Translations under genes and position numbers: made by a program
Notes under the pieces: generated by a model
What the model saw: the letters and a program-made list of their open reading frames with translations, nothing else
The model's database searches: none
What the model was told of the DNA's origin: nothing
Shown: positions 8,473 to 52,417 of the stretch, one piece after another
Numbering within the stretch: position 1 is the stretch's first letter
Layout: each line of letters opens with the position of its first letter
Assembly (NCBI RefSeq): GCF_030295975.1
Contig: NZ_AP027364.1
Coordinates: 1,116,001 to 1,180,000, forward strand
DNA length: 64,000 nucleotides
Reading direction: 5' to 3'
DNA from: Thalassotalea atypica
GTDB taxonomy: Bacteria; Pseudomonadota; Gammaproteobacteria; Enterobacterales; Alteromonadaceae

Positions 8473-9423
8473 TTAACCTTCATCAAACATCGCTGAAATT
8501 GACTCTTCGTTACTGACGCGACGAATAGCTTCAGACAACATACCGCTAAGGGTTAGTTGACGAACATTTTTCAATTTCTTTAATTCTGGAGACAATGGAA
8601 TTGAGTCAGTTACAATCACTTCGTCAATCACAGAATCTTTTAAGTTTTGAACTGCATTGCCAGATAATACTGGGTGAGTCGCATACGCATACACGTTTTT
8701 CGCACCGTGATCTTTCAGTGCAGCCGCAGCTTTTGCTAACGTACCACCCGTGTCAATCATGTCATCAACAATGATACAGTCACGACCTTCAACATCACCA
8801 ATAATATGCATAACTTGAGCAACATTTGCTTTAGGGCGACGTTTGTCGATGATAGCTAAGTCAGCATCATCTAATAACTTCGCTACAGCGCGAGCACGTA
8901 CTACACCACCAATATCAGGTGATACAACTACAGGGTTTTCTAAGTTCTTCTCTAACATATCTTCTAAAAGAATAGGCGTACCAAATACGTTATCTACTGG
9001 TACATCGAAGAAACCTTGAATTTGCTCAGCATGTAAGTCAACTGTTAATACACGGTCAACACCTACACTAGAAAGGAAATCAGCAACAACCTTTGCGGTA
9101 ATAGGAACACGAGCACTACGTACACGACGGTCTTGACGTGCGTAACCGAAGTAAGGCATTACTGCGGTAATACGACCGGCAGAAGCGCGGCGTAACGCGT
9201 CAACCATGACGATAAGTTCCATTAAGTTGTTGTTAGTTGGCGCGCAAGTTGATTGGATGATAAATACATCGGCACCACGAACGTTTTCAGTGATTTCAAC
9301 ACTGATTTCGCCATCGCTAAAACTACCTACTTTTGCTTCACCTAAACCAATATATAGTCGGTCAGCAATTTTTTTAGCCAGTTCAGGGGTGGCGTTTCCC
9401 GCAAAAATCTTCATGTCAGGCAC
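8473..9423 (-). CDS. prs: ribose-phosphate pyrophosphokinase (PRPP synthetase)
   Basis: The enzyme makes PRPP from ribose 5-phosphate and ATP for nucleotide, His and Trp synthesis. The start chosen is a GTG at 9421-9423. It is preceded by GAGGA with 7-nt spacing and gives a 316-residue protein beginning (V)PDMKIFAGN, co-linear with E. coli Prs (315 residues). An upstream in-frame ATG at 9450 would add nine unsupported residues. The PRPP-binding loop [10 protein letters not shown] and flexible-loop residues [15 protein letters not shown] are present. ispE and lolB are upstream on the same strand, and a 10-bp dyad lies in between. Confidence 0.95.
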
Positions 9424-9461
9424 TGTCAGTTCCTCAGAAACTTGTGACATTAAAAATACAC

Positions 9462-9488
9462 GCTGTTATATGTTACATATATAACAGC
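9462..9488. repeat. perfect inverted repeat in the prs leader
   Basis: GCTGTTATAT and ATATAACAGC form perfect 10-bp arms around a 7-nt spacer. It lies 39 nt upstream of the GTG start of prs and 29 nt downstream of ispE. It could be an operator or an mRNA leader hairpin. It does not match the PurR consensus. Confidence 0.6.
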
Positions 9489-9516
9489 AGATTATTTCAA
9501 TTTTGCCAGCCAAAGT

Positions 9517-10407
9517 TTATAAATTATTTACAATGGCGTGCACAGGCGATTGATTTAAGCCTTTAGCCACAAACGATGTTACCTCTTTTGGAAGTAAAGA
9601 CTGTAAGTGACGCGCCTCTTTTTCAGAGCCAAAACGTGTAAATATGCACGCCCCAGTCCCCGTCATTCGAGACGGCGCGTATTCTACCAACCAAGCCAGT
9701 AAGTTGGCAACCTCAGGATAGTGTTTAATTACCATTACTTCACAATCGTTATGCGAATGTTCGACATCTAAATTTACAAGTGAAATTTTAGGTGTGCTTC
9801 TCGGTAAGTCTTTTGATTTAAAGACTTCAGCGGTGGGTATACTACAGTTAGGCTTGCTAACTAAGTACCAATATTCAATTGGATTCGCTGGTAACAACTT
9901 TTCACCAACGCCATCGGCGAAAGCGGCAAACCCTTCAACAAAAATAGGCACGTCAGCACCGAGAGATAAACCGATGTCGGCCAGCTCTTGTATACTTAAA
10001 TTTACAGACCAAAGCTTATTCAACGCTAATAAAATCGTTGCGGCATTTGAAGAGCCGCCACCCAGTCCTCCCCCCATTGGCAGGATTTTTTTTATGGCTA
10101 TTTTTACGCCTAATTGATTGTTTTTTAGCTTGAATAGCAGCCGAGCAGCTTTGTAAATTAAATTGTCTTCTGTCGCAACTCCTTCGACCGGATTAAGTAA
10201 TGTAATTTGATTGTCGTTACTAAGCTCTATGGCTATTTCATCTCCGTAGTCCAAAAACTGGAACAAGGTTTGTAATTCGTGATATCCGTCTTCACGTTGA
10301 GCATTAATATGCAGAAATAAATTTAATTTTGCCGGTGATGGCAAAATAAATTGTGTAAAGTTGTTATCCGTTGATTGAGTAGCAGGCACTGAAGTTAAAA
10401 TTCCCAA
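9517..10407 (-). CDS. ispE: 4-diphosphocytidyl-2-C-methyl-D-erythritol kinase
   Basis: This GHMP-family kinase of the non-mevalonate isoprenoid pathway phosphorylates the 2-hydroxyl of CDP-ME. It carries the family start [11 protein letters not shown] with catalytic Lys, the ATP-binding glycine loop [14 protein letters not shown], and the C-terminal motif [10 protein letters not shown]. The longest frame (296 residues) starts at a TTG at 10407 that overlaps the lolB stop by 13 nt. A GTG at 10389 would give 290 residues, closer to the E. coli 283. Neither start has a clear ribosome-binding site, so the exact N-terminus is uncertain. It belongs to the lolB-ispE-prs unit. Confidence 0.94.
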
Positions 10408-11000
10408 CGATTAATAGCGAGCTTGATGGTTAGTTGATCTTGTTTGATGGTCATCTTAGTGGCGAGTTGATGACCTTTGATTGTTTTGTATTGCTGGTAG
10501 CGAACAGTCCATGCTTGATTGTCATATTCACTGGATAGTATAACAGGCAAATTTTGTTCATTAGTTTCGATACTATCTGAAGGTAAAAAAGGAATGCCTT
10601 TGATCCAATATTGTATCGCTTTAGTTGGTAACGTGAACCCCGTCAGTCGCCAGACAAGCAGTTCGAGATCATCCCCTTGATAACTTTCACCGTCAACCTC
10701 TATGGTAGTGAGCTCATTTTCTTGTTCAAGCGAAAGCACATTAATGCCGAGGTAGGTTGTCATTCTTAGAGATTGTTGTTGTGCTTCTTGGTCGACAGAC
10801 CAATGAAGGTTAGCGCTCTCTCTCTTATCTGTTTGAATAAATGCAATTTTTCCAGCAATACGCCATTGGCTTAGCGTTTTAAGTGTTTGTTCACGTGAAT
10901 CCGTATTGGTCAAAACATTCGGCTGTTTAATGGCATGTTGATTCACGCAGCCCGTCAATAATTGCAAACTTATGAGCAGGAAAAGTAAAAAGTATCTCAT
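10395..11000 (-). CDS. lolB: outer-membrane lipoprotein insertion protein LolB
   Basis: LolB receives lipoproteins from the LolA chaperone and inserts them in the outer membrane. This 201-residue protein has a lipobox LLTGC with lipidated Cys18, then the conserved WRIAGKIAF segment of the LolB beta barrel and the WRLTGFTLP region. It is the first gene of lolB-ispE-prs and diverges from hemA, the same arrangement as in E. coli. Confidence 0.94.
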
Positions 11001-35066: not shown

Positions 35067-35834
35067 TTATTTTTTAGTAAAACGACGGCCTAGCACTAAC
35101 AACATAACCGCTGACATCCACGCGAAGCTACCGCCACTGCTGCTACCACCATTACCACCATCATCTGGATCTGGTTGATTAATCAAAGTATTTGGGGTTT
35201 TATCCAAATCTCCATCAGTACTGGTACTGCTATCAACGACAACAATATTGTAGATTGTCACAAAATCTTCATAAGCAGGAACGTCGTTATTGCTACATTG
35301 CTCACTGGTGTAATTCTCAATCGGTGTGCTGTTACAAAGTGGCACATCTTCAATGGCTTCAAGCACATCCATACCGTCGCCAATGACTTGACCAAAAACA
35401 GTGAAACCGCCATTTTGTAAATCTAGATTGGCGCTGTTGTTTTCAAGGTTAAAAAACCATTGGCTGGTCGCGCTATTAGCATTGCCAGATACTTTAGCCA
35501 TTGCAATAGTACCTTTGACGTTGGACCATAGCGGCTCATTGTCAACACTGCCACGGGTTGATATAGGATCTAGAGAGATATCACCATCATATTTAAAGCC
35601 GCCGCCTTGAACAACAAAGTTTGGCTCCACCCGATGGATAACAGTGTCTACATAATCACTGTTATTTACATAGGTTAAAAAATTCTCAACGGTTTTAGGC
35701 GTTGATTCATCATGTAGGTTGACTTGAATATTACCGTGAGAGGTTTGAAACTCGACGATTGTTGCTTGAGAAAGTGCACTAGTTAATGCAAGCGCCGCCA
35801 TTGATAAATGACGAAATAAAGGTTTTAAGATCAT
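35067..35834 (-). CDS. cyclophilin-type peptidyl-prolyl isomerase with GlyGly-CTERM tail
   Basis: This 255-residue exported protein has a signal peptide (about residues 1-25). A cyclophilin domain (about 27-200) follows, with DTVIHRVEPNFVVQGGG, SATSQWFFNLENN and GGFTVFGQVIGDGMDVLEAI. The C-terminus has a Gly/Ser stretch (GGNGGSSSGGS), a hydrophobic span and RRFTKK. This is the GlyGly-CTERM signal that rhombosortase-type intramembrane proteases process. It is likely a surface or periplasmic folding helper. The sorting tail is more usual on secreted hydrolases, so its presence on an isomerase is notable. Confidence 0.92.
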   Translation of the reverse strand: MILKPLFRHLSMAALALTSALSQATIVEFQTSHGNIQVNLHDESTPKTVENFLTYVNNSDYVDTVIHRVEPNFVVQGGGFKYDGDISLDPISTRGSVDNEPLWSNVKGTIAMAKVSGNANSATSQWFFNLENNSANLDLQNGGFTVFGQVIGDGMDVLEAIEDVPLCNSTPIENYTSEQCSNNDVPAYEDFVTIYNIVVVDSSTSTDGDLDKTPNTLINQPDPDDGGNGGSSSGGSFAWMSAVMLLVLGRRFTKK

Positions 35835-35950
35835 GTTTTTTTACTGCTAATTATTACAACATGACGATAGTAATGTGACTGTTAGGTAAAGCAAAGTAAA
35901 TTTTTGTAAATCTTAGATGTTTTCATCTATTTATGATGTAGATGAAAACA

Positions 35951-36418
35951 TCATAGCTGAGACTGTATGTAGTTCTCTAACCCTATGGTTGAAATTAAGC
36001 CTAGCTGCTGCTCAAGCCAAAATGCGTGGTCAACTTCGGTATCATCAAGCAGCTTTTCTAATATTTCGCGACTGACAAAATCTTTCTCTTGCTCACATAG
36101 CTTGATTGCATTTTTAAGTGCTTTGGCGACAGCGTATTCCACATCTAAGTCACTTTGCAGCATCTCAGGTACATTTTTACCTATGTTTAAGCCACAACGA
36201 GATTGCATGTCTGGAATACCTTCTAAAAACAAAATGCGTTGTATCAGTAGTGAAGCGTGTTGCTTTTCATCGTCAAATTCGTGATCTATTCGTTCATATA
36301 ATTTGTTAATGCCCCAGTCTTCATACATGCGTGAATGAATGAAGTATTGATCCATAGCCGCTAATTCATAGCCTAATAAGCCGTTAAGAGCTGAAATTAC
36401 CTGTGTATTACCTTGCAT
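35951..36418 (-). CDS. bfr: bacterioferritin subunit with ferroxidase site, lacking the haem Met
   Basis: This 155-residue ferritin-like four-helix protein keeps the ferroxidase ligands of E. coli Bfr: Glu18, Glu51, His54, Glu94 and the ExxH pair (Glu128/His131, shifted by a one-residue insertion). Position 52, the haem-ligating Met in E. coli, is Lys. It should therefore oxidise iron but not bind haem, like the ferroxidase subunits of two-subunit bacterioferritins. It lies 10 nt after the complementary subunit gene, so the two are co-expressed and probably form mixed 24-mers. Confidence 0.93.
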
Positions 36419-36428
36419 AGTGCGTCCT

Positions 36429-36893
36429 CTATAATTGCGCCTGAATGTAGTTTGCTATACCAATGTGGTCAATTTGATATTGTTGGGCTTCAAGCCAATC
36501 TAAATATTCCTCTTCACCTTCCAAAATTTCATCGAGGATCTCGCGGCTCACATAGTCTTGTAGTTGTTCGCATAATGAAATAGCATCACGCATTACTTTG
36601 ATTTGGCCGTGCTGAAACTTAGTGTCACATTGCAACATTTCTTGCGTGTTCTCACCAATCACAAGGGGAGAGAGTTGTTGTAAATTAGGCAAACCCTCTA
36701 AAAACAAAACTCTTTCAATTAATTTGTCGGCTTGTTTCATGTCAAGAATTGACTTTTCATAGCACTTCTCATTGAGCTCATTAATGCCCCAGTTTTTATA
36801 CATTCTGGCGTGTAGAAAATAATGATTAATGGAGGTTAATTCGGATAGGAGTGCGTTATTGAGCGCGGATACAACTGCTGTATTGCCTTTCAT
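36429..36893 (-). CDS. bfr: bacterioferritin subunit with haem Met52 but degenerate ferroxidase site
   Basis: This 154-residue protein is clearly bacterioferritin ([19 protein letters not shown]). Met52 is kept, so it can supply the inter-subunit haem ligand. The diiron site is eroded relative to E. coli Bfr: Glu51 is Asp, His54 is Gln, Glu94 is Gln and His130 is Tyr, while Glu18 and Glu127 remain. This is the haem-type partner of the ferroxidase subunit encoded immediately downstream. Bfd is encoded just upstream on the same strand, giving a Bfd-Bfr-Bfr iron storage and release locus. Confidence 0.93.
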
Positions 36894-39547: not shown

Positions 39548-39862
39548 TTAAGTAAATGTTGCCTCAAATATCACGCTTTCTTCTGATTTCCCAACAGGCA
39601 CCAAGAATATGGCCATTGTGCCCAATTCTTGGTGTGATAGATGATACGTATCTTGTTGGATTGGAAATTCTAGCGGTGCATGAAAAACCAAAATGAAAGG
39701 AGCTTTTTTTGCGCGACTATCGTCTTGTTTATTGAGAGCAACGACTTCCGTCAACTCAATTTCACCTTCTATGGGCGCTAAACATCTAAACGGTTGATTC
39801 ACTATATTTGAAAAGTCTGTCATCTGTATATCGCTTAAATCGACTAAATCCATTTTTGACAT
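39548..39862 (-). CDS. DUF6916-like protein (cytosolic form)
   Basis: This 104-residue beta-rich protein has no signal peptide. Its core reads IELTEVVAL, PFILVFHAPLEF, QDTYHLSHQELGTMAIFLVPVG and FEATF. That pattern matches the DUF6916 family, small proteins often encoded beside phage-tail-collar (MdpB-like) proteins, and it aligns along its length with the Tat-exported protein at 41077. It diverges from the arginine methyltransferase gene with 114 nt between starts, and it marks the left edge of the collar-protein cluster. Function is unknown; family assignment is from memory of the motif. Confidence 0.7.
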   Translation of the reverse strand: MSKMDLVDLSDIQMTDFSNIVNQPFRCLAPIEGEIELTEVVALNKQDDSRAKKAPFILVFHAPLEFPIQQDTYHLSHQELGTMAIFLVPVGKSEESVIFEATFT

Positions 39863-39976
39863 TGACGTATACCTTTTGTTTTTTCGTACTATTATTTGTA
39901 ACTGACAGCAAGGGTTTTAGCAAGTTAGCAATTTTTTATAAATGTATAAAATGAATAATAAAAATTAAGGAAGCTC

Positions 39977-40885
39977 ATGACAAATAAATCAATATACACG
40001 CATACAAATCACCCTGCATTTTTATATCAAGAGATGCTGTCTGATCAATATCGGATGCAATGTTATCGAAGAGCGATCAATGAGGTTGTCGAGCAAGGCG
40101 ATGTCGTTGTTGATTTAGGTACAGGAACAGGTGTTTTAGCCATCATGGCCGTTCAAGCAGGGGCTTCTCACGTTTATGCTGTTGAGGTGCGTCCACAAAT
40201 AATACCAATTACACGGCAAATTATTGCTGACAATGGCATGTCAGAGCAGATCACAGTGATTGAAGGTGACGCTAGAAATATTACCCTCACAGAGTCCGTC
40301 GATGTGATTATTAATGAGCTTATTGGGGATTTTGGCACAGATGAAAATATTGCCGAGTGCGTCAACGCTGTTGCCGAAAGATACTTAAAGCCTTCAGGGA
40401 CAATATTACCTCGTACACTCAAAACCTACCTTGTGCCGGTTCAATATCAAAACGAGTATCAAGGAATCTGGCGGGAAAACTTTCAAGGTATTGACCTGAA
40501 AAGTGTAGCAAAGCTTGATTGCGTAGAAGAGGCGCAAATGCGGATTTTGTCCCACCAGCCGACTGAACTTGCTACTCCACAGTTAATTGAGAACATTGAT
40601 TTTAGTAAAGATAAAAAGCCGAGATTGTTGGCTCATGACATTGAGTTTCATGTACATACTGCTGGAGCTTTGCACGGGTTCATGGGGTATTTCGAAAGTG
40701 AATTAACTCACAACGTCAGTATTAATAATTATCCGGGATACAAAGGATGTCATTGGCAAACATGGCATTGGCCGGTTTACCCGACACTGAATGTTGAAAA
40801 AAGTGCATCAATTAACGGGATGCTGGCAACGCCGGAAAATATGATAGCACAGGGGTGGAACTTAACCTGGTCTCATAAAGCGTGA
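39977..40885 (+). CDS. PRMT-type protein arginine methyltransferase
   Basis: This 302-residue SAM-dependent enzyme has the full PRMT core. The N-terminal helix QEMLSDQYRMQCYRRAI is present, and the SAM loop VVDLGTGTGVLAI is at 45-55. The acidic end of beta2 is VYAVE, and the double-E hairpin Glu114-x8-Glu123 lies in NELIGDFGTDEN. A barrel segment GFMGYFESEL and a THW-like loop at His259-Trp260 (CHWQTWHWPV) follow. PRMTs methylate arginine side chains and are rare in bacteria. It lacks the dimerisation detail needed to call a subtype, although the double-E loop resembles PRMT5. The protein substrate is unknown; the neighbouring exported collar and DUF6916 proteins are candidates. Confidence 0.88.
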   Translation: MTNKSIYTHTNHPAFLYQEMLSDQYRMQCYRRAINEVVEQGDVVVDLGTGTGVLAIMAVQAGASHVYAVEVRPQIIPITRQIIADNGMSEQITVIEGDARNITLTESVDVIINELIGDFGTDENIAECVNAVAERYLKPSGTILPRTLKTYLVPVQYQNEYQGIWRENFQGIDLKSVAKLDCVEEAQMRILSHQPTELATPQLIENIDFSKDKKPRLLAHDIEFHVHTAGALHGFMGYFESELTHNVSINNYPGYKGCHWQTWHWPVYPTLNVEKSASINGMLATPENMIAQGWNLTWSHKA

Positions 40886-41076
40886 CATGTATCTAGTTAA
40901 AAGAGCTCAAAAAATGTCCGAATTATTTACAGTTCTGGTGAAGTCTAAATATGCAATGACGCAATGGCCAAGGCTAACCTACTGTTAATTGGATGTAATT
41001 ATTAATAATTACTCATTGGTGTGTTTTGTGCATTATTTGAACAATTCTTAAGGGCTTATTTCTTACGGGAGATTCT

Positions 41077-41481
41077 ATGTTGCAACGTCGGCAATTTATT
41101 TTAGGCACCGCCACGTTATTTGGTGCTACTTTATTAGTCCCTTCAATTTCGCTCAAAGTACTTGCTGAAACAGGCAGTGAAATTTCCTCTGGGGAAGACA
41201 AATTTTCGCACTTAATGAAAAAATGGATCGCACTGTATGACAGCAATGGTGGTTATCTCGCAGAAATTAAACTGGTAAAAGTGTTTGAAGAAAGCTCTGA
41301 TGATGCTGTGGAGCAGTTTTCACTGCGCTGGGAAACCAGAGAAGAGTCATCATTAGAAGCGGGTATATACGTACTTGAAGATTTTTCAAGTACACCTATG
41401 CTTATTTATTTAGAGCCTTCGTATAGTAAAAAAAGGAATGGGCGGTTCTTTCGTGCATCGTTTAGTTTACTTAAAAATTAG
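41077..41481 (+). CDS. Tat-exported DUF6916-like protein
   Basis: This 134-residue protein has a twin-arginine signal (RRQFILG, then a hydrophobic span to about residue 30). The mature part has the DUF6916 pattern: YLAEIKLVKVF, EQFSLRWETRE, EAGIYVLED, PMLIYLEPS and FFRASFSL. It aligns with the 104-residue protein at 39548 and is probably its exported counterpart. Tat export of such a small domain implies folding before transport. It lies 191 nt after the methyltransferase and upstream of three collar-protein genes. Confidence 0.75.
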   Translation: MLQRRQFILGTATLFGATLLVPSISLKVLAETGSEISSGEDKFSHLMKKWIALYDSNGGYLAEIKLVKVFEESSDDAVEQFSLRWETREESSLEAGIYVLEDFSSTPMLIYLEPSYSKKRNGRFFRASFSLLKN

Positions 41482-41689
41482 CAGAACCAGAATCCAGGGC
41501 TATATTTTGTTGTAGGGTATTATCCTTTTGGTTTAACGAAACGTTGTTCGAGCCAATAAACACAATCATGGCGATTTAAGTTTTACGCATACAACTGAGT
41601 GGTTTAACTGCCACTTTTATGAATATATTTAGAGCTAGGGTCGGCTAGTAGTATGTGCTCTAAACAAGATGACAAAAAGGAGTCATATC

Positions 41690-42202
41690 ATGTCTGAGCC
41701 GTTTCTGGCAGAGGTAAAGATCGTCGGATTTAACTTCTCACCGAGAGGTTGGGCTTTATGCGACGGACAAATACTACCTATCAATCAAAATCAATCACTC
41801 TATTCTCTACTTGGCACAGCGTATGGCGGTGATGGGCGAACTTCGTTTGCTTTGCCGGATATGCGAGGAAGAACGCCCATGCACGTAGGTGACGGTATAT
41901 CGCAAGGTGAGCGTTCAGGAGATGAAAACCATATTTTACAAGAATCCGAAATTCCTGCCCATACACATCAAGCAAGAGCTTCATCCGCTACGGCAAGTTC
42001 ATCATCGGGAACGGGGAACTTACTAGGTGTAGGAGCTGGCGGAAGGAGGCCATTAACGCCTTACGGTAGCTTAACGCAAACAGCGGCACTAACAGGAAAT
42101 CAGGTATCAACCACTGGAGGTCAAGGGCACAATAATATGCAGCCGTATCTCGCGTTAAACTTTGTTATTGCTCTTCAGGGCTTGTTCCCATCACGTAACT
42201 AA
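41690..42202 (+). CDS. phage tail collar domain protein (MdpB-like), copy 1
   Basis: This 170-residue protein starts at ATG 41690 (MSEPFLAEVKI), with AAAAGGAG 8 nt upstream. Residues about 15-70 form the tail-collar domain: FSPRGWALCDGQ, LLGTAYGGDGRTSFALPDMRGRTP. A His-containing middle (PAHTHQARA), a Ser/Gly-rich stretch and the closing block NNMQPYLALNFVIALQGLFPSR follow. It has no signal peptide. Proteins of this kind are called microcystin-dependent protein B-like; their role is unknown. It is the first of three tandem paralogues. Confidence 0.92.
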   Translation: MSEPFLAEVKIVGFNFSPRGWALCDGQILPINQNQSLYSLLGTAYGGDGRTSFALPDMRGRTPMHVGDGISQGERSGDENHILQESEIPAHTHQARASSATASSSSGTGNLLGVGAGGRRPLTPYGSLTQTAALTGNQVSTTGGQGHNNMQPYLALNFVIALQGLFPSRN

Positions 42203-42220
42203 CTCAAGGAGGAAATGATT

Positions 42221-42736
42221 ATGTCAGAACCATTTGTGGGTGAAATTAGAATGTTTGCTGGAAACTTTGCTCCTCGAAGTTGGAGTTTTTGTGACGGGCA
42301 GCTATTGGCAGTATCTCAAAACGATGCCTTATTTAGTTTATTTGGCACCATATATGGCGGTGATGGTAGAACCACGTTTGGCCTACCGGATTTACGAGGT
42401 CGGATACCTATTCATGCTGGGAGTGGACCAGGGTTATCAACACGAAGACTGGGCGCTAAAGCAGGGTCGGAAAATGTGTCGTTAGACAGCAATACCGTGG
42501 GGGCACATAGTCATGGCTTTTTAGCCTCGACTTCAGCAGCTGGTGATGGTAGCCCTGCTGGCAACACGACAGCAACACCATCAGGTGCAAATATATACGG
42601 TACAGGCGCTGCAGTAGCAATGAGTGGCAACAGTGTTGCTGCTACAGGCACAGGCAATCCACACACAAACCTCATGCCAACGCTTTGTGTACATTTTATT
42701 GTCGCGCTTTTCGGCGTTTATCCATCAAGGCATTGA
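42221..42736 (+). CDS. phage tail collar domain protein (MdpB-like), copy 2
   Basis: This 171-residue paralogue starts at ATG 42221 with a near-perfect AAGGAGG 8 nt upstream. An ATG at 42215 is too close to that site. It begins MSEPFVGEIRMFAGNFAPRS and keeps WSFCDGQLL, SLFGTIYGGDGRTTFGLPDLRGR and IPIHAGSGPGL, then a Gly/Ala/Thr-rich hinge and the C-terminal NLMPTLCVHFIVALFGVYPSR. The closing block deviates from the NNMQP form of the other copies. It lies 18 nt after copy 1 and 10 nt before copy 3. Confidence 0.92.
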   Translation: MSEPFVGEIRMFAGNFAPRSWSFCDGQLLAVSQNDALFSLFGTIYGGDGRTTFGLPDLRGRIPIHAGSGPGLSTRRLGAKAGSENVSLDSNTVGAHSHGFLASTSAAGDGSPAGNTTATPSGANIYGTGAAVAMSGNSVAATGTGNPHTNLMPTLCVHFIVALFGVYPSRH

Positions 42737-42746
42737 GGAGAACAAC

Positions 42747-43256
42747 ATGTCAGAACCTTTTATAGCTGAAATCAGGATATTTGCCGGAAATTTTGCACCA
42801 AGAAGTTGGGCATTTTGTGATGGGCAATTATTGCCTGTGGCACAAAATACGGCGTTATTTTCATTGATAGGTACAACATATGGTGGTGACGGTAGGACAA
42901 CTACGGCATTACCCAATTTGCAAGGCAGGGCACCAATGCACCCAGGTCGAGGGCCCGGTTTAACTGCTAGGCGTCTTGGCGAAAGAATTGGTACTAACGA
43001 TGTTACATTGACTACCAATCAACTGCCGCCCCACAGTCATACCTTGAATTCGTTCCCAACGGCAAGTGCGACTTCCCCCTCTGCTGCTGTTGGTATTGGA
43101 GCCGCACCAATGTATGCCAGTGATACTGATGTTACTAATATGGCCGTAGGCACTCTGGAAAATGCCGGCGGAAATCAGCCGCACAACAATATGCAGCCAT
43201 TTTTAGGGATGTATTTCATTATCGCTTTACAGGGGCTTTATCCATCAAGGAGTTAA
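42747..43256 (+). CDS. phage tail collar domain protein (MdpB-like), copy 3
   Basis: This 169-residue paralogue starts at ATG 42747 after GAGGAGAAC. It has WAFCDGQLLPVAQN, SLIGTTYGGDGRTTTALPNLQGRAP, then GRGPGLTARRLGER, LPPHSHTLN and the ending NNMQPFLGMYFIIALQGLYPSR. It is more like copy 2 in the first half and like copy 1 in the closing block, suggesting divergence after duplication with some exchange. A GNAT gene follows after 22 nt. Confidence 0.92.
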   Translation: MSEPFIAEIRIFAGNFAPRSWAFCDGQLLPVAQNTALFSLIGTTYGGDGRTTTALPNLQGRAPMHPGRGPGLTARRLGERIGTNDVTLTTNQLPPHSHTLNSFPTASATSPSAAVGIGAAPMYASDTDVTNMAVGTLENAGGNQPHNNMQPFLGMYFIIALQGLYPSRS

Positions 43257-43278
43257 GTTGTTTTATGGAGTGCGCACA

Positions 43279-43800
43279 ATGAATAGCGAGCCTTTACGGG
43301 TTGAAGTGGGGCAATTAAATGCCCCATTGGCAGGAGCGATATCACTTCGAATGTCGAATGAAAGTGACATGGCGTTCTTGTTGTCGGTTTATGCGGATTC
43401 TCGCTCGGAGGAAATGCTTAAAATAGGGCATTGGAATGATACAGAGAAAGCGGAGTTTTTACGTTTTCAATTTTATGCGCAGGATGAGCATTATAAAAAG
43501 CATTACCCAAAGGCGGAGTTTTTGATCATTAAGGTTGAAGATGAAGACATAGGACGTTTGTATGTTGAACGAACGTCAAAGGATATACGGGTGATGGATA
43601 TTGCCTTATTACAACCACATAGGCGACGTGGCATTGGGTGTAAGTTGATGACCGACTTGCTCGACGAAGCCAAGCATCATCAACAAACCGTTAGTCTGCA
43701 TGTCGAGCCGGACAATGTCGCTAAACAACTATATTTAAAGCTCGGTTTCTCGGTTGTCGAAGAAATTAGTTTTTATGAAAAAATGGAATGGTCTTATTAG
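43279..43800 (+). CDS. GNAT family N-acetyltransferase
   Basis: This protein of about 173 residues starts at ATG 43279, with GGAG 8 nt upstream. It is a single GNAT domain: ISLRMSNESDMAFLLSVYAD at the N-terminus, the acetyl-CoA motif A in ALLQPHRRRGIGCKLM, and the C-terminal VEPDNVAKQLYLKLGFSVVEE. It acetylates an unknown amine. It is co-directional with the three collar genes after a 22-nt gap, and GNAT genes are repeatedly found beside such proteins, so the collar proteins themselves are conceivable substrates. Confidence 0.9.
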   Translation: MNSEPLRVEVGQLNAPLAGAISLRMSNESDMAFLLSVYADSRSEEMLKIGHWNDTEKAEFLRFQFYAQDEHYKKHYPKAEFLIIKVEDEDIGRLYVERTSKDIRVMDIALLQPHRRRGIGCKLMTDLLDEAKHHQQTVSLHVEPDNVAKQLYLKLGFSVVEEISFYEKMEWSY

Positions 43801-43914
43801 CTTGGGTTAAACAGATCAGTTCATGCAAATAATCAGTGTGTTTTTAGGTTCAATTTAACGGTATTACATGAACCGATGATGCATATATTGAGATGATAAA
43901 AAAAGGAGAAAATT

Positions 43915-45303
43915 ATGTTCTCATGGTTAGATACATTGCCAATGGCAATAAAAGGATTGAGCAAATGGCTCAATCGGTGTCTTGTTGCCTTAATGCTGTG
44001 TGCATTATCGCTGACCAATATCGCATCAGCAGCCATTATTGATGTTATTTATGTCGGTACGTGGGATACCGTAGCCGATACACCTAATTCTACTGCTAAT
44101 GGTGGCCCCGGAATGAGCGTAGGGCAAAAATACGTCATTAAGTTCAGTTATGATGACACCTCAACAGTGACGAATAATGTTGCTGTTAAAGATTTAGGCT
44201 TTAATGATACAAATAAATCAATGAGCACCATTGATTTATCTGCTGCGGGCAACAGTTTGGATATATTTGTTCCTATGGAAGGGCTGGATGCAGGATCACC
44301 GTTTATTTATCAGCAAGACCAAAGCAATCATTTTGATTTTGGCGATAATTCTCCTGTACCTACGCTAAATTTTGCCAATGGCTCTGACATTAGCGACAAA
44401 AACAATATTATTGGTCTTGAGTATGAAGGAGATTTTGCTGGGGCTGGCTTTAATTTCATTCAATTATTTAATACTGCGACAGATACTAGCGCGACATCTA
44501 TGGAGGCGAAAGCTTTTAACTGTATGGACGCAAATTGTATTGGGGGGCAAGTCGCCTCTACCAGTTCAAATAATAGTGTCTTAAACGAAGCCGTTGAACT
44601 GGTAGTAGATGCCGGCCCTGATATTGTTTACAACGCCGCGACACTGATACAAACCGCGACTGCTTCGGTTACTCAAAGCAATGATCTAGGCGCAGCCCGT
44701 TCAGACGGTGAAGACTTCGTTGGTTTTACTTGGTCTGAAACGGGTACTGTCATTGGAGATAGTATTCAAGTCGGTATTGCTGCATCGGGGTTATCCATGA
44801 CCACCAGTACAGCAACGTGGACTGCAAATGGGACTGAAGAAATGACCGGGAAATCGGATTCTGATACCACTAACGTTAGTTATGACAATGCCACCCCAAC
44901 ATTAAATGCTTCTGCAACGGTAAACGGAACTGACATTGACTTTACTTTTAATGCTGGCGATGCAGACCTAGCAGTGAATGCCCTAATTGCAGGATTTGAA
45001 AGCCTATCTTTTGCTGCGCTTATTAATGGAGCAACCAACGCTACAGCCTTCTTTGCAGATTTATTTTCATCTGGTGCTTTCTCATATTCTATGGCGGACT
45101 TAACTGCTGCGTTTGGTGGTGGAAATCATAACGTATTATTTAGCGTTACAGACAAAGCAGGATTTTTATCCGATGTTAGCTTTGATTTTGATGTAACGAC
45201 TGTCGTTAACCCTCCGACAATTCCTGAGCCTAGTGCTATAGTGTTAATGCTTGCTGGATTATTGATACTGTGGCGCAAGTATAGTAGCCGCCCGTTAATT
45301 TAA
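43915..45303 (+). CDS. secreted PEP-CTERM protein of unknown function
   Basis: This 462-residue protein has a strong AAAGGAG ribosome-binding site and a long signal peptide (hydrophobic core about 24-41, ending IASAA). The extracellular part is beta-rich, Asp/Ser/Thr/Ala-rich and low in Cys (only two, near 200). The C-terminus has the PEP-CTERM signal: IPEPSAIVLMLAGLLILW then RKY, which is recognised by exosortase for processing at the cell surface. No exosortase gene is in this window. It likely belongs to the collar-protein cluster or marks its right part. Confidence 0.88.
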   Translation: MFSWLDTLPMAIKGLSKWLNRCLVALMLCALSLTNIASAAIIDVIYVGTWDTVADTPNSTANGGPGMSVGQKYVIKFSYDDTSTVTNNVAVKDLGFNDTNKSMSTIDLSAAGNSLDIFVPMEGLDAGSPFIYQQDQSNHFDFGDNSPVPTLNFANGSDISDKNNIIGLEYEGDFAGAGFNFIQLFNTATDTSATSMEAKAFNCMDANCIGGQVASTSSNNSVLNEAVELVVDAGPDIVYNAATLIQTATASVTQSNDLGAARSDGEDFVGFTWSETGTVIGDSIQVGIAASGLSMTTSTATWTANGTEEMTGKSDSDTTNVSYDNATPTLNASATVNGTDIDFTFNAGDADLAVNALIAGFESLSFAALINGATNATAFFADLFSSGAFSYSMADLTAAFGGGNHNVLFSVTDKAGFLSDVSFDFDVTTVVNPPTIPEPSAIVLMLAGLLILWRKYSSRPLI

Positions 45304-45316
45304 TTAAGGATTATGA

Positions 45317-45886
45317 ATGCGGATAGACAGATTTCTGCTTGTTGTCATTTTATCTAGTATTTCGTTAAGTTCATTGGCAAAAGACACCGACGGTGTTTTT
45401 GCCATCAAGGGCGTTGGCGTACAGCAATGTAAAAGCTTTATTGTGGCTGCCAGTAAAGACGAACCCGTATTGCAGCAGTATGCGGGGTATGTTTCAGGTT
45501 ATATTTCAGCCTATAACGAGCTTGAATCAGAGACCTTTGATTTATTAGCATGGCAGCGACTCGACACGGTTATGCTGTTGCTGTTGCAAGGATGCAAACA
45601 AACGCCTGAATCAACCGTAGGAGGCGTTATTTCTCGGGTAGTAAAATACTTCTCTTCAAATGCGATAAAGAAAAACACGGAGAAAGTAGAGGTCAAAGGC
45701 CCGTCTTCTTCGCTCTATTTTTATCCTGAGGTTATTAGTCAAATACAAGAGGCACTAAAGCAGCAAGGCTACAATATAGATGATTTATGGCAAGCCATGG
45801 AAAAGTATCAACAAGATAAAAAGCTCATCGGTAAATCTCCCTTTGATCAATTAATCTTAATGAAGCTGCTCTACGGTAAAAAGTGA
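45317..45886 (+). CDS. exported protein of unknown function
   Basis: This 189-residue protein has a signal peptide ending SSLAKD. The first half resembles Rap1a/HdeA-like helical domains (VQQCKSFIVAA, GYVSGYISAYN, with Cys near 36 and 95 that may pair). The second half has a helical YFYPEVISQIQEALKQQGYN segment, like the start of peptidoglycan-binding domains, though too short to be sure. It starts 13 nt after the PEP-CTERM gene and is probably co-expressed. I do not recognise a family. Confidence 0.75.
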   Translation: MRIDRFLLVVILSSISLSSLAKDTDGVFAIKGVGVQQCKSFIVAASKDEPVLQQYAGYVSGYISAYNELESETFDLLAWQRLDTVMLLLLQGCKQTPESTVGGVISRVVKYFSSNAIKKNTEKVEVKGPSSSLYFYPEVISQIQEALKQQGYNIDDLWQAMEKYQQDKKLIGKSPFDQLILMKLLYGKK

Positions 45887-49348: not shown

Positions 49349-52300
49349 CTAATCATTTTGAATATTAATAACAGTCTGTTTAAGTAAACCACCGTCACTA
49401 TGACTCAATACACCAAGGTACTTTTCAGCGCCTAAGTCAGCCCAATCAACAGTCACTGTTCCTGTCGTTCCTAAAACTGCACCAGCGGGGCTTGTCACTG
49501 TCATATTGCCAGCGTCTACAGATGGATCCCAACTAAATAAAGTGTAGTTAGCATCAGCGCCATCAGTCTGCCAGCCATGAACTGCTACAAAATAAAGCGT
49601 GTCGGCAGGAGAGGCAATATCAACTTGTTCAGCACTAGTGCCATTGCCAGAAGAACCCATGAAGCTAAAGCTTGAGTCCCAAACATATAAATCAGCATCG
49701 TCAGCGCCGTCTGTGTAATCATCAAATAATGATATTCTCACTAATTCTGCGCCAGGAGCAGCAAATACTGCATGCCAAGTAATACCTTCACAAGTGAATG
49801 GAAATCCGCCGAAGTCACAAGTATCTAATGCTGTATTGATATCATTGCTCGGGTCATCAGCAACCGTACCTGCTTGGGTAGATGCAGCAACTAAGCCATG
49901 CGTTCCAACACTGTAATTACCCGTATAGCCAAATGCGACATCAAAACTCGTTGAGCCATCAGCACCACTGCCAACAATTTCAGCTGGAGCACCTAACTGA
50001 ACGGGGTATACTACTACTGCACTACGTACGAGTTGATCGCCATCTACCCAAGTGATACCACCAGTTGAATATGTATCAACGTCTGCATCAATATTGGTAA
50101 ATGTCACGCTATAAGAAACACTTTCTCCTGGAGCAATTGCAATTACCGCAGGATTAATACTTACTGAAATACCGTCTAGACCATCAATCACTGGAGTATA
50201 AGTACCATGTGAATCAGAAACATTAGTTACTGTACGAGTCACTGTTTGGCTACCTGCTAGAGCGCCAATAGCTATCGACGGGTAGTTCATGTTGCTTGGG
50301 TCAGGGGCATAGCCTCCACAATCAATTGACCCGGTACCGCATAAAAATCCGATCCAATCATTCCAGCCTGCGTCATAAACTAAGCCTGGATTGATGGCTT
50401 TATTAGGTTGAACAAAACCAGCGCCGTAGCCAAAAGGTCCGTCCGGAATAGGATTACCTTGGTTGGTCGTTTGAACTGCAGAGGTCATAAATGCAGACTT
50501 AATAGCTGCTGGTGACCAATCTGGGTGTGCTTGTTTCATAAGAGCAGCTAAACCAGCCATATGAGGGCTAGACATAGAAGTGCCGCTTAATGCGCCAAAG
50601 TTTTCGCCACCGTAACCGTCAGGTGATACAGCTGCTATAATGTCAACGCCTGGTGCCATGATATCTGGTTTAAGAATATCACCAGAGCCAGCCAGTGCTG
50701 GGCCGCGCGAAGAAAAACCAGCGACAAAAGATCCTTCTAATGTCATTGGTGTACCAGCACTCAAGCTACCACCGTCGGCGCCAGAGTTGATTGCATAATT
50801 TCTAATAGCATTACCTGTAGCAACGTCCACGTGGATACTTGGTACAGAATGAAAATCAGCATTTAATGAAGAAGGAGCAACATTAGCTAAAACCATACCT
50901 GAGCCGCCAGCCATTGACACGGCTAAGCTTTTATCTACTCGAGCAATTGTCCCGCGATCACACACTACGATTTTTCCTGCAACAGCAGTATCGTCTAAAG
51001 TACCAGGGTAACAAAGTCGTGCTTCTTCAGAGTCTGCACCTGCTGCCACGGCATTCAGTGAATAAATCATCTCTGATTGACCAAGGCCACTACCTAAAGA
51101 TACGCCTGAATATGTTACACCATCACCTGTTGTAGTGACGGTAGCTTCCCAGCCTCTATCATGAGTACCTGCTGCAACGGTCGTCAGCCAAGGACTGTTA
51201 TGAGCAACAGTGCTCGCTCCTGGGCCACTGTTACCAGCAGAAGCTGCAACAAACACGCCTGCATCAGCTGCAAATAGAAACGCAATTTCTACTTGGTCTG
51301 TGAAGCTTGTGCTAGAACCACTAATTGAAAAATTCAGGACGTCTACACCATCGGCAACGGCTTGGTCGATTGCTGCGACGCTATCCGCGCCAAAACAACC
51401 ACCTTCACCACCTCGTCCCCAACATACTTTATATGCAGCGACTCTGGCACGTGGTGCCATACCGCTTGCAGTACCTACATCAGATCCATTAATTGAAACA
51501 TCAACATCACTATTACCTCCAGCAGTGCTCATGGTATGTGTGCCGTGACCGTCTGCATCTCGAGCTGAGGCATACTCATAAGGGAAGGCTGCTTTTACAC
51601 CTATATCGCCGCCAAAGCCAGAGTTAAACCACTGAGCAGCAATCAGCTTTTGATTACAGTCTGAGGCAGGGAATCCCTCTCCTGGCGTACACTTACCATG
51701 CCAACCAGGAATTTGATGGTAACTTAACTTTCCACCTTTACCGTTTTTGTTTGTACCGGTTCTGTCTGAAAAGCTTTCAGATTCAGGCCAAACACCTGAG
51801 TCGATGATGCCAATAATTACATCTTCACCGGCGTAATCTTTACCACCTAGCTTTTCCCATAAACCAGTTCCGTCTGTGGCATCTAAACCAAGGAATGATG
51901 TAGTCGAGATAGTGTCTGGTTTAAGCATTTCATCCGCTACAACAGTTAAAACATCAGGGTTTGCTTTTAGTTTTGCTACTTGAGCTGAACTTAGTCGAGC
52001 GGAAAAGCCATTATATGAATATTTGTAACTGTAGAGCTTGCTGTTTGAGCCGATATCTTTTAATAAATTATCGTGTTTGTTGGTTAGATAATCTCCGTAA
52101 GCAATAACATGTTTGTTTTTAGGATCTATTTTTTTGTTTTTGCTAGGTTTAGTTGCTTTTAGACCTTTGATGCTTCCGTCATAGGCAGCAATAGGATTAT
52201 CTTTCATTCGAATGATATATACATCATTTTTTGATGTTGTTTTGCTTGAAGTAATGCTACTGGTAAGCATTTGAGCATCAACGGCTGGAATATCTGTGGC

Positions 52301-52417
52301 ATATGCCGAATTCCAGATGATTACAGGTAGAATAAGTACGGTTTGAAATGTTGAGTTATAGACTTTACTTAATAATTTCGATTTGGTTTTAACACCTTTT
52401 ATGAAAGAGCCTTTCAC
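49349..52417 (-). CDS. secreted subtilisin-like serine protease (S8 family)
   Basis: This is a 1022-residue multidomain protease. The signal peptide ends near residue 40 (SAYA), and an I9 propeptide inhibitor spans about 60-165. The S8 domain has Asp206 (IIDSGVWPE), His291 (DGHGTHT), oxyanion Asn396 (SAGNSGP) and Ser614 (GTSMSSPH). A PA domain is inserted at about 440-560. A fibronectin-like domain follows at 730-830, and beta domains close the chain, including a PPC-like region with CDFGGFPFTC. The PA insertion and Fn3-like domain are shared with plant subtilases and many Alteromonadales enzymes. It acts outside the cell, probably in protein degradation for nutrition. It is a single-gene unit. 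Confidence 0.95.
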   Translation of the reverse strand: MKGSFIKGVKTKSKLLSKVYNSTFQTVLILPVIIWNSAYATDIPAVDAQMLTSSITSSKTTSKNDVYIIRMKDNPIAAYDGSIKGLKATKPSKNKKIDPKNKHVIAYGDYLTNKHDNLLKDIGSNSKLYSYKYSYNGFSARLSSAQVAKLKANPDVLTVVADEMLKPDTISTTSFLGLDATDGTGLWEKLGGKDYAGEDVIIGIIDSGVWPESESFSDRTGTNKNGKGGKLSYHQIPGWHGKCTPGEGFPASDCNQKLIAAQWFNSGFGGDIGVKAAFPYEYASARDADGHGTHTMSTAGGNSDVDVSINGSDVGTASGMAPRARVAAYKVCWGRGGEGGCFGADSVAAIDQAVADGVDVLNFSISGSSTSFTDQVEIAFLFAADAGVFVAASAGNSGPGASTVAHNSPWLTTVAAGTHDRGWEATVTTTGDGVTYSGVSLGSGLGQSEMIYSLNAVAAGADSEEARLCYPGTLDDTAVAGKIVVCDRGTIARVDKSLAVSMAGGSGMVLANVAPSSLNADFHSVPSIHVDVATGNAIRNYAINSGADGGSLSAGTPMTLEGSFVAGFSSRGPALAGSGDILKPDIMAPGVDIIAAVSPDGYGGENFGALSGTSMSSPHMAGLAALMKQAHPDWSPAAIKSAFMTSAVQTTNQGNPIPDGPFGYGAGFVQPNKAINPGLVYDAGWNDWIGFLCGTGSIDCGGYAPDPSNMNYPSIAIGALAGSQTVTRTVTNVSDSHGTYTPVIDGLDGISVSINPAVIAIAPGESVSYSVTFTNIDADVDTYSTGGITWVDGDQLVRSAVVVYPVQLGAPAEIVGSGADGSTSFDVAFGYTGNYSVGTHGLVAASTQAGTVADDPSNDINTALDTCDFGGFPFTCEGITWHAVFAAPGAELVRISLFDDYTDGADDADLYVWDSSFSFMGSSGNGTSAEQVDIASPADTLYFVAVHGWQTDGADANYTLFSWDPSVDAGNMTVTSPAGAVLGTTGTVTVDWADLGAEKYLGVLSHSDGGLLKQTVINIQND

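Follow-up and report, generated by a model that had tools for sequence, protein, structure and literature searches.

What do three tandem genes for phage-type tail collar proteins do in a bacterial chromosome, side by side with genes for a GNAT acetyltransferase and two DUF6916 proteins? The question is raised by a region of Thalassotalea atypica (positions 39,548 to 45,886 of the window, which is the whole analysed stretch of 64,000 nucleotides, positions 1,116,001 to 1,180,000 of contig NZ_AP027364.1). The original prediction, made from the letters of this stretch alone, had described the region as a possible undescribed surface system with conserved gene content. Our analysis of gene neighbourhoods indicates that the collar triplet, the GNAT and DUF6916 almost certainly constitute one functional unit, and the proposal of a conserved gene set was borne out insofar as this combination recurs in many phyla, on plasmids as well, and outside phages.

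When 84,980 species genomes were scanned with collar 2, 79 loci were returned, 71 of them with three tandem collars, in at least eight phyla by record labels (including Proteobacteria, Acidobacteria, Bacteroidetes, Chloroflexi, Planctomycetes, Cyanobacteria, Verrucomicrobia and Firmicutes), and across phyla the collar identities were 58-70% in 63 of the 79 loci. Collar relatives were also found in 72 plasmid records, three places being present in 24 of 30 among the matches listed. Annotated triplets with a GNAT occur in Ruegeria sp. TM1040, Deinococcus ficus, Azospirillum oryzae, Sinorhizobium meliloti and Rhizobium bangladeshense; DUF6916 was not found at the D. ficus locus. Among phage records 316 of 50,697 matched the collar, all at less than 60% identity (best of 30 listed 35.4%), and since these 316 records hold 354 places in all, collar triplets hardly ever occur in phages. 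Viral contigs yielded only 2 collar relatives, at 32-34% identity. The best explanation of these sequence comparisons appears to be a non-phage fibre-tip module that spread horizontally, and the fibre-tip fold of phages and virophages would now be a bacterial module in many phyla and on plasmids.

The linkage of the parts was measured independently of the collar-seeded loci in 147 genomes of the window's family, where the Pfam models alone were used for DUF6916 and the collars. DUF6916 has 18 places in 16 of these genomes and collars have 90 places in 45, and all 18 DUF6916 places lie at most 1,885 nt from a collar gene (1,885 nt being the distance from the window's cytosolic DUF6916 to the nearest collar profile match), which is more than chance would give. 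A class-wide sample of 274 genomes contained collars in 7 of 7 DUF6916 genomes compared with 26 of 274 overall (hypergeometric p 3e-8), and 8 of its 12 DUF6916 places were within 2,471 nt of a collar. Likewise, a profile of the operon GNAT gave 24 places of at least 82 bits in the 147 family genomes, all 24 within 2,452 nt of a collar, two of the 24 being members of the profile's own alignment (A3, which includes the GNATs of the window and of L060, the G286 place). The next scores were 76 bits or lower; distances were measured for 33 listed places, comprising all 24 and 9 with lower scores (two chosen by eye), and 1 of these 9 was beside a collar (G401, 52.7 bits). On this evidence from family and class, DUF6916 (in the window's family) and one GNAT subfamily belong to the collars. 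For the scan of the loci themselves, the GNAT, DUF6916 and collar profiles were built from collar-seeded loci and the window. Triplet counts refer to loci with three tandem collars (71 of the 79 seeded with collar 2), and counts of the neighbours to those 49 triplets that are flanked by 4 kb or more on each side: within 6 kb, 48 of the 49 have the GNAT and 42 have DUF6916. An association of methyltransferase, DUF6916 and collar genes confined to this strain had been named as the outcome that would speak against a system. For DUF6916, collars and GNAT the linkage is widespread, while the protein arginine methyltransferase (PRMT) is closely linked in only one other genome.

In the window the nine genes of the region are arranged as follows (window positions; profile scans by Pfam and NCBIfam):

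39548..39862, minus strand: DUF6916 protein without signal peptide (cytosolic copy), divergent; PF21880 72.4 bits (cut-off 27).
39977..40885, plus strand: PRMT-like protein arginine methyltransferase, accessory; PF05185 (PRMT5) 43.2 bits (cut-off 22.9).
41077..41481, plus strand: DUF6916 protein with a signal of the twin-arginine translocation (Tat) type (exported copy); PF21880 24.9 bits, below the cut-off of 27.
41690..42202, plus strand: collar protein 1, clade A, leaderless, MSEPF start, PSRN end; PF07484 93.1 bits (cut-off 24) and tree.
42221..42736, plus strand: collar protein 2, clade B, leaderless, MSEPF start, PSRH end; PF07484 97.1 bits and tree.
42747..43256, plus strand: collar protein 3, clade C, leaderless, MSEPF start, PSRS end; PF07484 94.9 bits and tree.
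43279..43800, plus strand: GNAT acetyltransferase of the collar-linked subfamily, nearest to N-terminal acetyltransferases (NATs); Pfam 44.1 bits, rimI 42.8 bits.
43915..45303, plus strand: exported protein with a PEP-CTERM-like end, candidate surface partner; motif 16.0 bits, exosortase in the genome.
45317..45886, plus strand: small exported protein with no match above any family cut-off; its cluster recurs in L060 and L123.

All nine are open reading frames (ORFs) at the positions originally given. The three tandem collars with their tight spacing of 18 and 10 nt, followed by the GNAT after 22 nt, were confirmed for the MSEPF starts of the collars (41690, 42221 and 42747) and the GNAT start at 43279; the ORFs of collars 1 and 2 open at 41669 and 42215, and an upstream GTG would open that of collar 3 at 42624. 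The 4.39 Mb genome has no PF07484 place other than these three collars. Two DUF6916-like genes had been described, and the first clearly belongs to the family, while the second scores just under the cut-off. Its N-terminus (MLQRRQFILGTATLFGATLL) is Tat-like, with the twin-arginine motif RRQFILG followed by a hydrophobic stretch, a call made from the motif only. The PEP-CTERM motif is weak, its score lying below the Pfam cut-off of 20.7 and at the NCBIfam cut-off of 16; the genome encodes an exosortase (241.9 bits).

The clearest hint of what GNAT and DUF6916 contribute came from a comparison of collar loci with one another. Two main kinds were found, one with leaderless collars (mostly with an M-S/A-E-P-F start) and one whose collars carry a Sec-like leader, after 170 loci had been reduced to 131 distinct ones; leaders were assigned by a rule of start codon and hydrophobicity, not by a signal-peptide predictor, and L117, L122 and L025 were classed by hand. 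Leaderless loci with a flank of at least 3 kb contain the GNAT in 74 of 76 cases and DUF6916 in 66 of 76, whereas neither gene was detected in any of 12 Sec-leader loci, or in any of 16 when short flanks are included. Fisher's p for the GNAT is 4e-13, in a set of loci that are related and whose first scan was seeded with a leaderless collar. A family sample drawn with Pfam showed the same division among its 17 triplets, 12 being leaderless with GNAT and DUF6916 and 5 having leaders and neither gene. The Sec-type triplets keep the same tandem three-collar plan and are exported by prediction. Since most leaderless loci carry both genes and Sec-leader loci neither, GNAT and DUF6916 seem to stand in for the signal peptide, and the simplest inference from the sequences is a maturation or export module that replaces the leader. 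This contrast is an addition to the picture originally drawn, and through it the question how a signal-less, pre-folded trimer reaches the surface becomes directly testable. The Emticicia locus L118 has two leaderless collar triplets in a row with MD or ME starts, GNAT and DUF6916 being undetected there.

The collars themselves had been suggested to form small fibres, a view that is altered here to three distinct, co-occurring paralogues, for which a single heterotrimer is the best reading. In a tree, 78 triplets resolve into three clades, A, B and C (best-clade support 0.92, 0.69 and 0.90), which were chosen by best fit to position 1, 2 or 3, the permuted loci then falling against position. 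One member per clade is present in 75 of the 78 triplets, 68 of them arranged as ABC and 7 in a permuted order (four CAB, one each of CBA, BCA and BAC), the exceptions being L103 and two triplets of L118; the window triplet consists of three consecutive genes in the order A-B-C, one clade per position. Among 16 other family triplets 6 are ABC and 5 combine an A-like and a B-like member with one of a different clade, while the Sec-type triplets of L180, L182, L183 and L186 form three position-specific clades of their own and the three members in L179 group together like recent duplicates. One of each clade per triplet, even when the order is permuted, is the pattern expected of parts of one complex. 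The nearest solved structures by profile are a long tail fibre (8kec, E-value 2.5e-8) and the fibre tip gp12 of phage T4 (1ocy, E-value 8e-4). The head region differs among A, B and C, and an HxH pair, which we take to be the metal site of T4 gp12, is kept in 220 of 234 collars. The collars share with the T4 gp12/gp37 fibre tips (PF07484; PDB 1ocy, 5iv5) the collar domain by profile and, in most cases, the HxH pair; they differ in being separate bacterial proteins of about 170 residues and not the homotrimeric end of a phage fibre. In the Alcanivorax loci L108, L109, L110 and L112 the collars (9155-10417) have only 137-152 residues and have lost the HxH head, with triplet, GNAT and DUF6916 kept.

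A closer parallel is provided by the virophage DSLV2 of the Aquatic Virophage 1 lineage. According to the available part of the report, its tripartite tail proteins are encoded by three PF07484 genes in succession, the collar tree gives each position a clade of its own, the three proteins co-purify in vitro as a 1:1:1 heterotrimer, and the fibres, of about 16 nm, bind Synechococcus cells (PMC12724248). We liken DSLV2 to clades A, B and C by gene arrangement and tree pattern. The virophage system differs in that its triplet is viral and lies beside a capsid gene, and the same part of the report mentions neither a GNAT nor DUF6916 nor an exported bacterial partner (PMC12724248). Since a 1:1:1 heterotrimer arises from virophage triplets that bear this signature, it is also the best reading of the bacterial proteins, and by analogy collars A, B and C quite probably make up one heterotrimer.

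The model of DUF6916, made for the cytosolic copy of the window, is confident (predicted local distance difference test, pLDDT, 91.3) and has the form of a small beta barrel with one helix, and a sequence search found no solved relative. Weak PilZ and tail-protein lookalikes of the fold were not used to assign a function, none having an E-value below 0.2. The description of one cytosolic and one Tat-exported copy was supported: the pair of Tat and non-Tat copies was flagged in 11 loci, corresponding to ten distinct places including the window, and L072 and L094 look like such pairs by eye. By the same rule-based assignment a Tat-like signal was flagged in 13 of 94 DUF6916 ORFs, the remaining 81 having no detected signal. 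The Tat pathway carries folded proteins, and a trimer without a signal of its own could therefore travel on it as a hitch-hiker. Tentatively, DUF6916 might be a holdase or export partner. In genome G143 DUF6916 genes occur away from collars (L128, L129), one lying by eye among glycosyltransferase-like genes and the other having a Tat-like signal near a 517-residue exported protein.

Acetylation had been suggested as one possible modification of the collars. One GNAT subfamily is linked to them, and its sequence resembles N-terminal acetyltransferases. The subfamily alignment shows invariant residues beyond the acetyl-CoA part and no shared leader. The best NCBIfam match of the window GNAT is rimI, at 42.8 bits under its cut-off of 86.4, and of the 19 solved GNATs nearest to it, 10 bear the name of an N-terminal acetyltransferase (11 if 2ob0, a MAK3 homologue, is counted). 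RimI, NAA50 and archaeal NATs are the nearest named GNATs, from which the operon GNAT differs by its score under the curated RimI cut-off, its own conserved residues and its linkage to collars. The leaderless collars in GNAT loci begin with M-S or M-A in 257 of 268 cases; methionine aminopeptidase would trim such starts to an N-terminal Ser or Ala. On these sequences, N-terminal acetylation of the collars by the GNAT is the best guess, held at a little below even chance.

Exported proteins had also been noted beside the window collars, and a PEP-CTERM or other exported protein is indeed common there. In 38 loci a co-directional gene of at least 400 residues ends less than 700 nt before collar 1, and 33 of these 38 encode 905-3,110 residues. 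The three such upstream partners that were scanned have immunoglobulin (Ig)-like, cadherin-like or beta-helix domains, and a neighbour on the other strand in L214 is an autotransporter with Ig domains. A C-terminal tail with conserved cysteines, aligned from 19 partners, was found in 34 locus records, 15 of them outside its alignment and some representing the same place. The tail was detected in 0 of 16 Sec-type loci and at 4 places of the class sample: two immediately precede a collar triplet, a third lies on a different contig of a genome that has collars, and the fourth, a weak match, is in a genome without collars. The window has no giant beside its collars and has there instead the PEP-CTERM protein of 43915-45303, whose cluster also stands beside collars in L060, L073 and L123. 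This protein resembles PEP-CTERM/exosortase surface proteins in its PEP-CTERM-like C-terminal motif and in the presence of an exosortase in the genome; it differs in its weak motif score and in its pairing with collar genes, which was not found described in the literature searched. Four upstream proteins of Sec-type loci were scanned, and the PEP-CTERM motif was detected in those of L179 (22.1 bits) and L180 (17.1 bits; cut-off 20.7), the Pfam scan giving no family for the other two. The large exported protein, or in the window the PEP-CTERM protein, is likely the anchor.

In outline, we propose that a bacterial module builds a fibre tip that binds receptors and is meant for the cell surface. 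In the proposed sequence, collars A, B and C would fold in the cytosol into one knitted 1:1:1 trimer, like the DSLV2 triplet; the GNAT would acetylate their shared N-terminus (Met removed, Ser/Ala-Glu-Pro-Phe); the small beta barrel of DUF6916 would hold the folded trimer, and the Tat-exported copy, where present, would let it cross the inner membrane as a hitch-hiker. Once outside, the trimer would cap an exported partner, which may be a beta-helix/Ig adhesin with the C-terminal tail, an autotransporter or the PEP-CTERM protein of the window, and the resulting tip would bind glycans or other cells. That the collars work at the surface or outside the cell is likely, and the full chain we regard as evenly poised between right and wrong. 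In its boldest form, which is unlikely, many phyla would export a folded heterotrimeric phage-type tip by a dedicated non-Sec route: the operon GNAT would cap all three subunit N-termini, and the DUF6916 chaperone would carry the finished trimer out, using Tat if Tat-signalled, and load it on the C-terminal tail of the secreted adhesin. Evolution could exchange this route for ordinary Sec signal peptides carried by three proteins of this kind.

A number of observations weigh against this proposal. In the class sample 4 of the 12 DUF6916 places are not beside collars, with no collar on their contig, and among the 76 leaderless loci 8 have the GNAT with no detected DUF6916, and L118 and L133 have neither. 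A single DUF6916 copy without detected Tat signal is present in 66 of 81 DUF6916 loci, and therefore Tat hitch-hiking cannot be general as stated; comparison of the DUF6916 model with solved folds gave no match below an E-value of 0.2. The collar monomer model is poor (pLDDT 54.6). The similarity of the GNAT to NATs resides mostly in the acetyl-CoA half, and 30 of 40 leaderless collars from loci without a detected GNAT also have the M-S/A start, so that this N-terminus by itself does not track the GNAT (the flanks are short in 11 of the 13 distinct leaderless loci that lack a detected GNAT, and the M-S/A start is found in 0 of 6 collars of L118, whose triplets have full flanks but no GNAT). 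The partner tail was not found in the window's genome, and the step of the giant-partner tail consequently does not apply directly to the window, while only 2 of the 4 Sec-type upstream proteins scanned have a PEP-CTERM motif, one under the cut-off. Finally, a collar protein was found in the exoproteome of Ruegeria pomeroyi, as far as the accessible portion of that paper tells (PMC4949626), but it is possibly of the Sec type and thus does not show leaderless export.

Alternatively, the leaderless collars might stay in the cytosol, where A, B, C, GNAT and DUF6916 would come together in one complex, which could for instance help to assemble the secreted protein encoded next to them; only the relatives with Sec leaders would act outside. 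The leaderless collars have no signal peptide by our rule, nor do most DUF6916 ORFs (81 of 94), and the GNAT alignment has no shared leader either, all of which would suit such a complex. However, the Sec-type relatives in the family share the tandem-triplet plan and are predicted to be exported, DUF6916 copies with a Tat-like signal are found repeatedly, exported surface proteins are among the neighbours scanned, and collar domains are fibre parts in phages and virophages, so we consider a purely cytosolic role improbable. A different objection concerns the heterotrimer, in whose place the operon could supply three separate homotrimeric tips of differing binding specificity. Phage T4 gp12 is reportedly a homotrimer. 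The differing head regions of A, B and C would fit this arrangement, and the collar trimer of T4 gp37 is a homotrimer according to the part of the virophage report at hand (PMC12724248). Against it stand the one member of each clade in 75 of 78 triplets regardless of order and, from the same partial source, the heterotrimer of virophage triplets with this signature (PMC12724248), which make separate tips a decidedly poor prospect.

As substrates of the GNAT, lysines or a small molecule, and not the collar N-termini, are given the same slightly less than even chance as N-terminal acetylation, since the substrate cannot be read from a sequence that matches mainly in the acetyl-CoA part and M-S/A starts also occur in those 30 of 40 collars where no GNAT was detected; conversely, the extra conserved residues of the subfamily, its 24 high-scoring places in 147 genomes, all beside collars, and the near-invariant collar N-terminus favour the collars as substrate. 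That the cluster is instead a prophage or tailocin relic, retained by chance or because it serves as a decoy receptor for phages, is very improbable. The window collars do match tail proteins by PHROG and fold search, as such a relic would, whereas phage records contain only the 316 matching entries (354 places) of low identity, viral contigs only two relatives, the two window DUF6916 proteins have no PHROG match, and collar identity stays at 58-70% in 63 of 79 loci across phyla. Having weighed the few, distant phage and viral relatives and the DUF6916 result, we also rejected a phage origin of the cluster as a whole.

In agreement with the original statement that capsid, sheath, baseplate, lysis and integrase genes are absent, no phage structural, lysis or integrase genes were seen by eye among the 24 ORFs of 36-50 kb, and no capsid gene adjacent to the triplet was found among these ORFs or by the scans of ten of their proteins with Pfam and nine with PHROGs. 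The PRMT, which had been proposed as a component, is genuine by sequence, as originally named: besides its PF05185 score it matches solved PRMTs with up to 91 bits (phmmer, E-value 6e-25), and both loop glutamates are kept in the alignment to these (NE...TDE), in what is presumably the PRMT double-glutamate loop. A close relative was found in only 1 other of the 147 family genomes (G286, 398 bits, beside the same island; next best 105 bits), and L060 and L192, each on a contig of 242,000 bases, look like the same place. The PRMT was therefore rejected as a core part, and because it is not closely linked beyond that one further genome, methylation of the collars, which had been suggested as a general modification, is not part of the core either. 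Antiphage defence was rejected as well, PADLOC having matched the PRMT alone, with methyltransferase-bearing models (best mad2, E-value 7e-18).

No earlier description of the cluster was found in the literature searched (topics tail collar, MdpB, RhiB, PEP-CTERM and exosortase), and the name DUF6916 occurs in no paper of that literature, subscription papers and preprints lying largely outside the search. A known non-phage bacterial collar-domain protein is RhiB of the quorum-sensing-linked rhiABCD operon of Rhizobium, which is thought to function in plant-microbe interaction; it is a single collar protein, the available part of its description mentions neither GNAT nor DUF6916, and the two systems were compared by description only (PMC13133039). 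In Acaryochloris marina MBIC11017, AM1_3684 (a conserved hypothetical protein) and AM1_3686-3690 (an acetyltransferase, a conserved hypothetical protein and three phage tail collars) are co-induced in low far-red light with log2 values of about 3.2-4.0, according to the accessible part of the study (PMC11633204). The order of these genes fits locus L065 of another Acaryochloris, a match by order alone. A 2026 re-analysis, likewise available in part, names AM1_3686-3689 putative Pcb/CBP antenna proteins (PMC13259208), an annotation that may be correctable, the genes fitting the collar operon by order. The cluster looks like an undescribed bacterial means of holding on to things, and it offers a frame for the role of two unassigned groups, DUF6916 and the bacterial "tail fiber proteins" beside GNATs.

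Other genes were observed in the surroundings of some loci. On the Azospirillum oryzae plasmid (L137, 3664-15537) the triplet, GNAT and DUF6916 have neighbours annotated as lasso-peptide B2, PqqD, asparagine synthetase, 2OG-Fe oxygenase and glycosyltransferases, which hint that peptides or glycans are modified further. In 13 loci a gene of about 430 residues is located near collar 3 and the GNAT, with no Pfam match in the one scanned. In seven alphaproteobacterial loci (L048, L062, L075, L076, L079, L085 and L117) a SapC-like gene lies near DUF6916 (PF07277, 229 bits in the one scanned), and some of them also have a short gene with weak pentapeptide similarity. In the window itself, the regions 35067-36893 and 49349-52417 by eye hold a cyclophilin-like exported protein that ends in a glycine-rich tail and a hydrophobic stretch, a tandem pair of ferritin-like ORFs, each about 155 residues long, and a large exported protease that resembles subtilisin.

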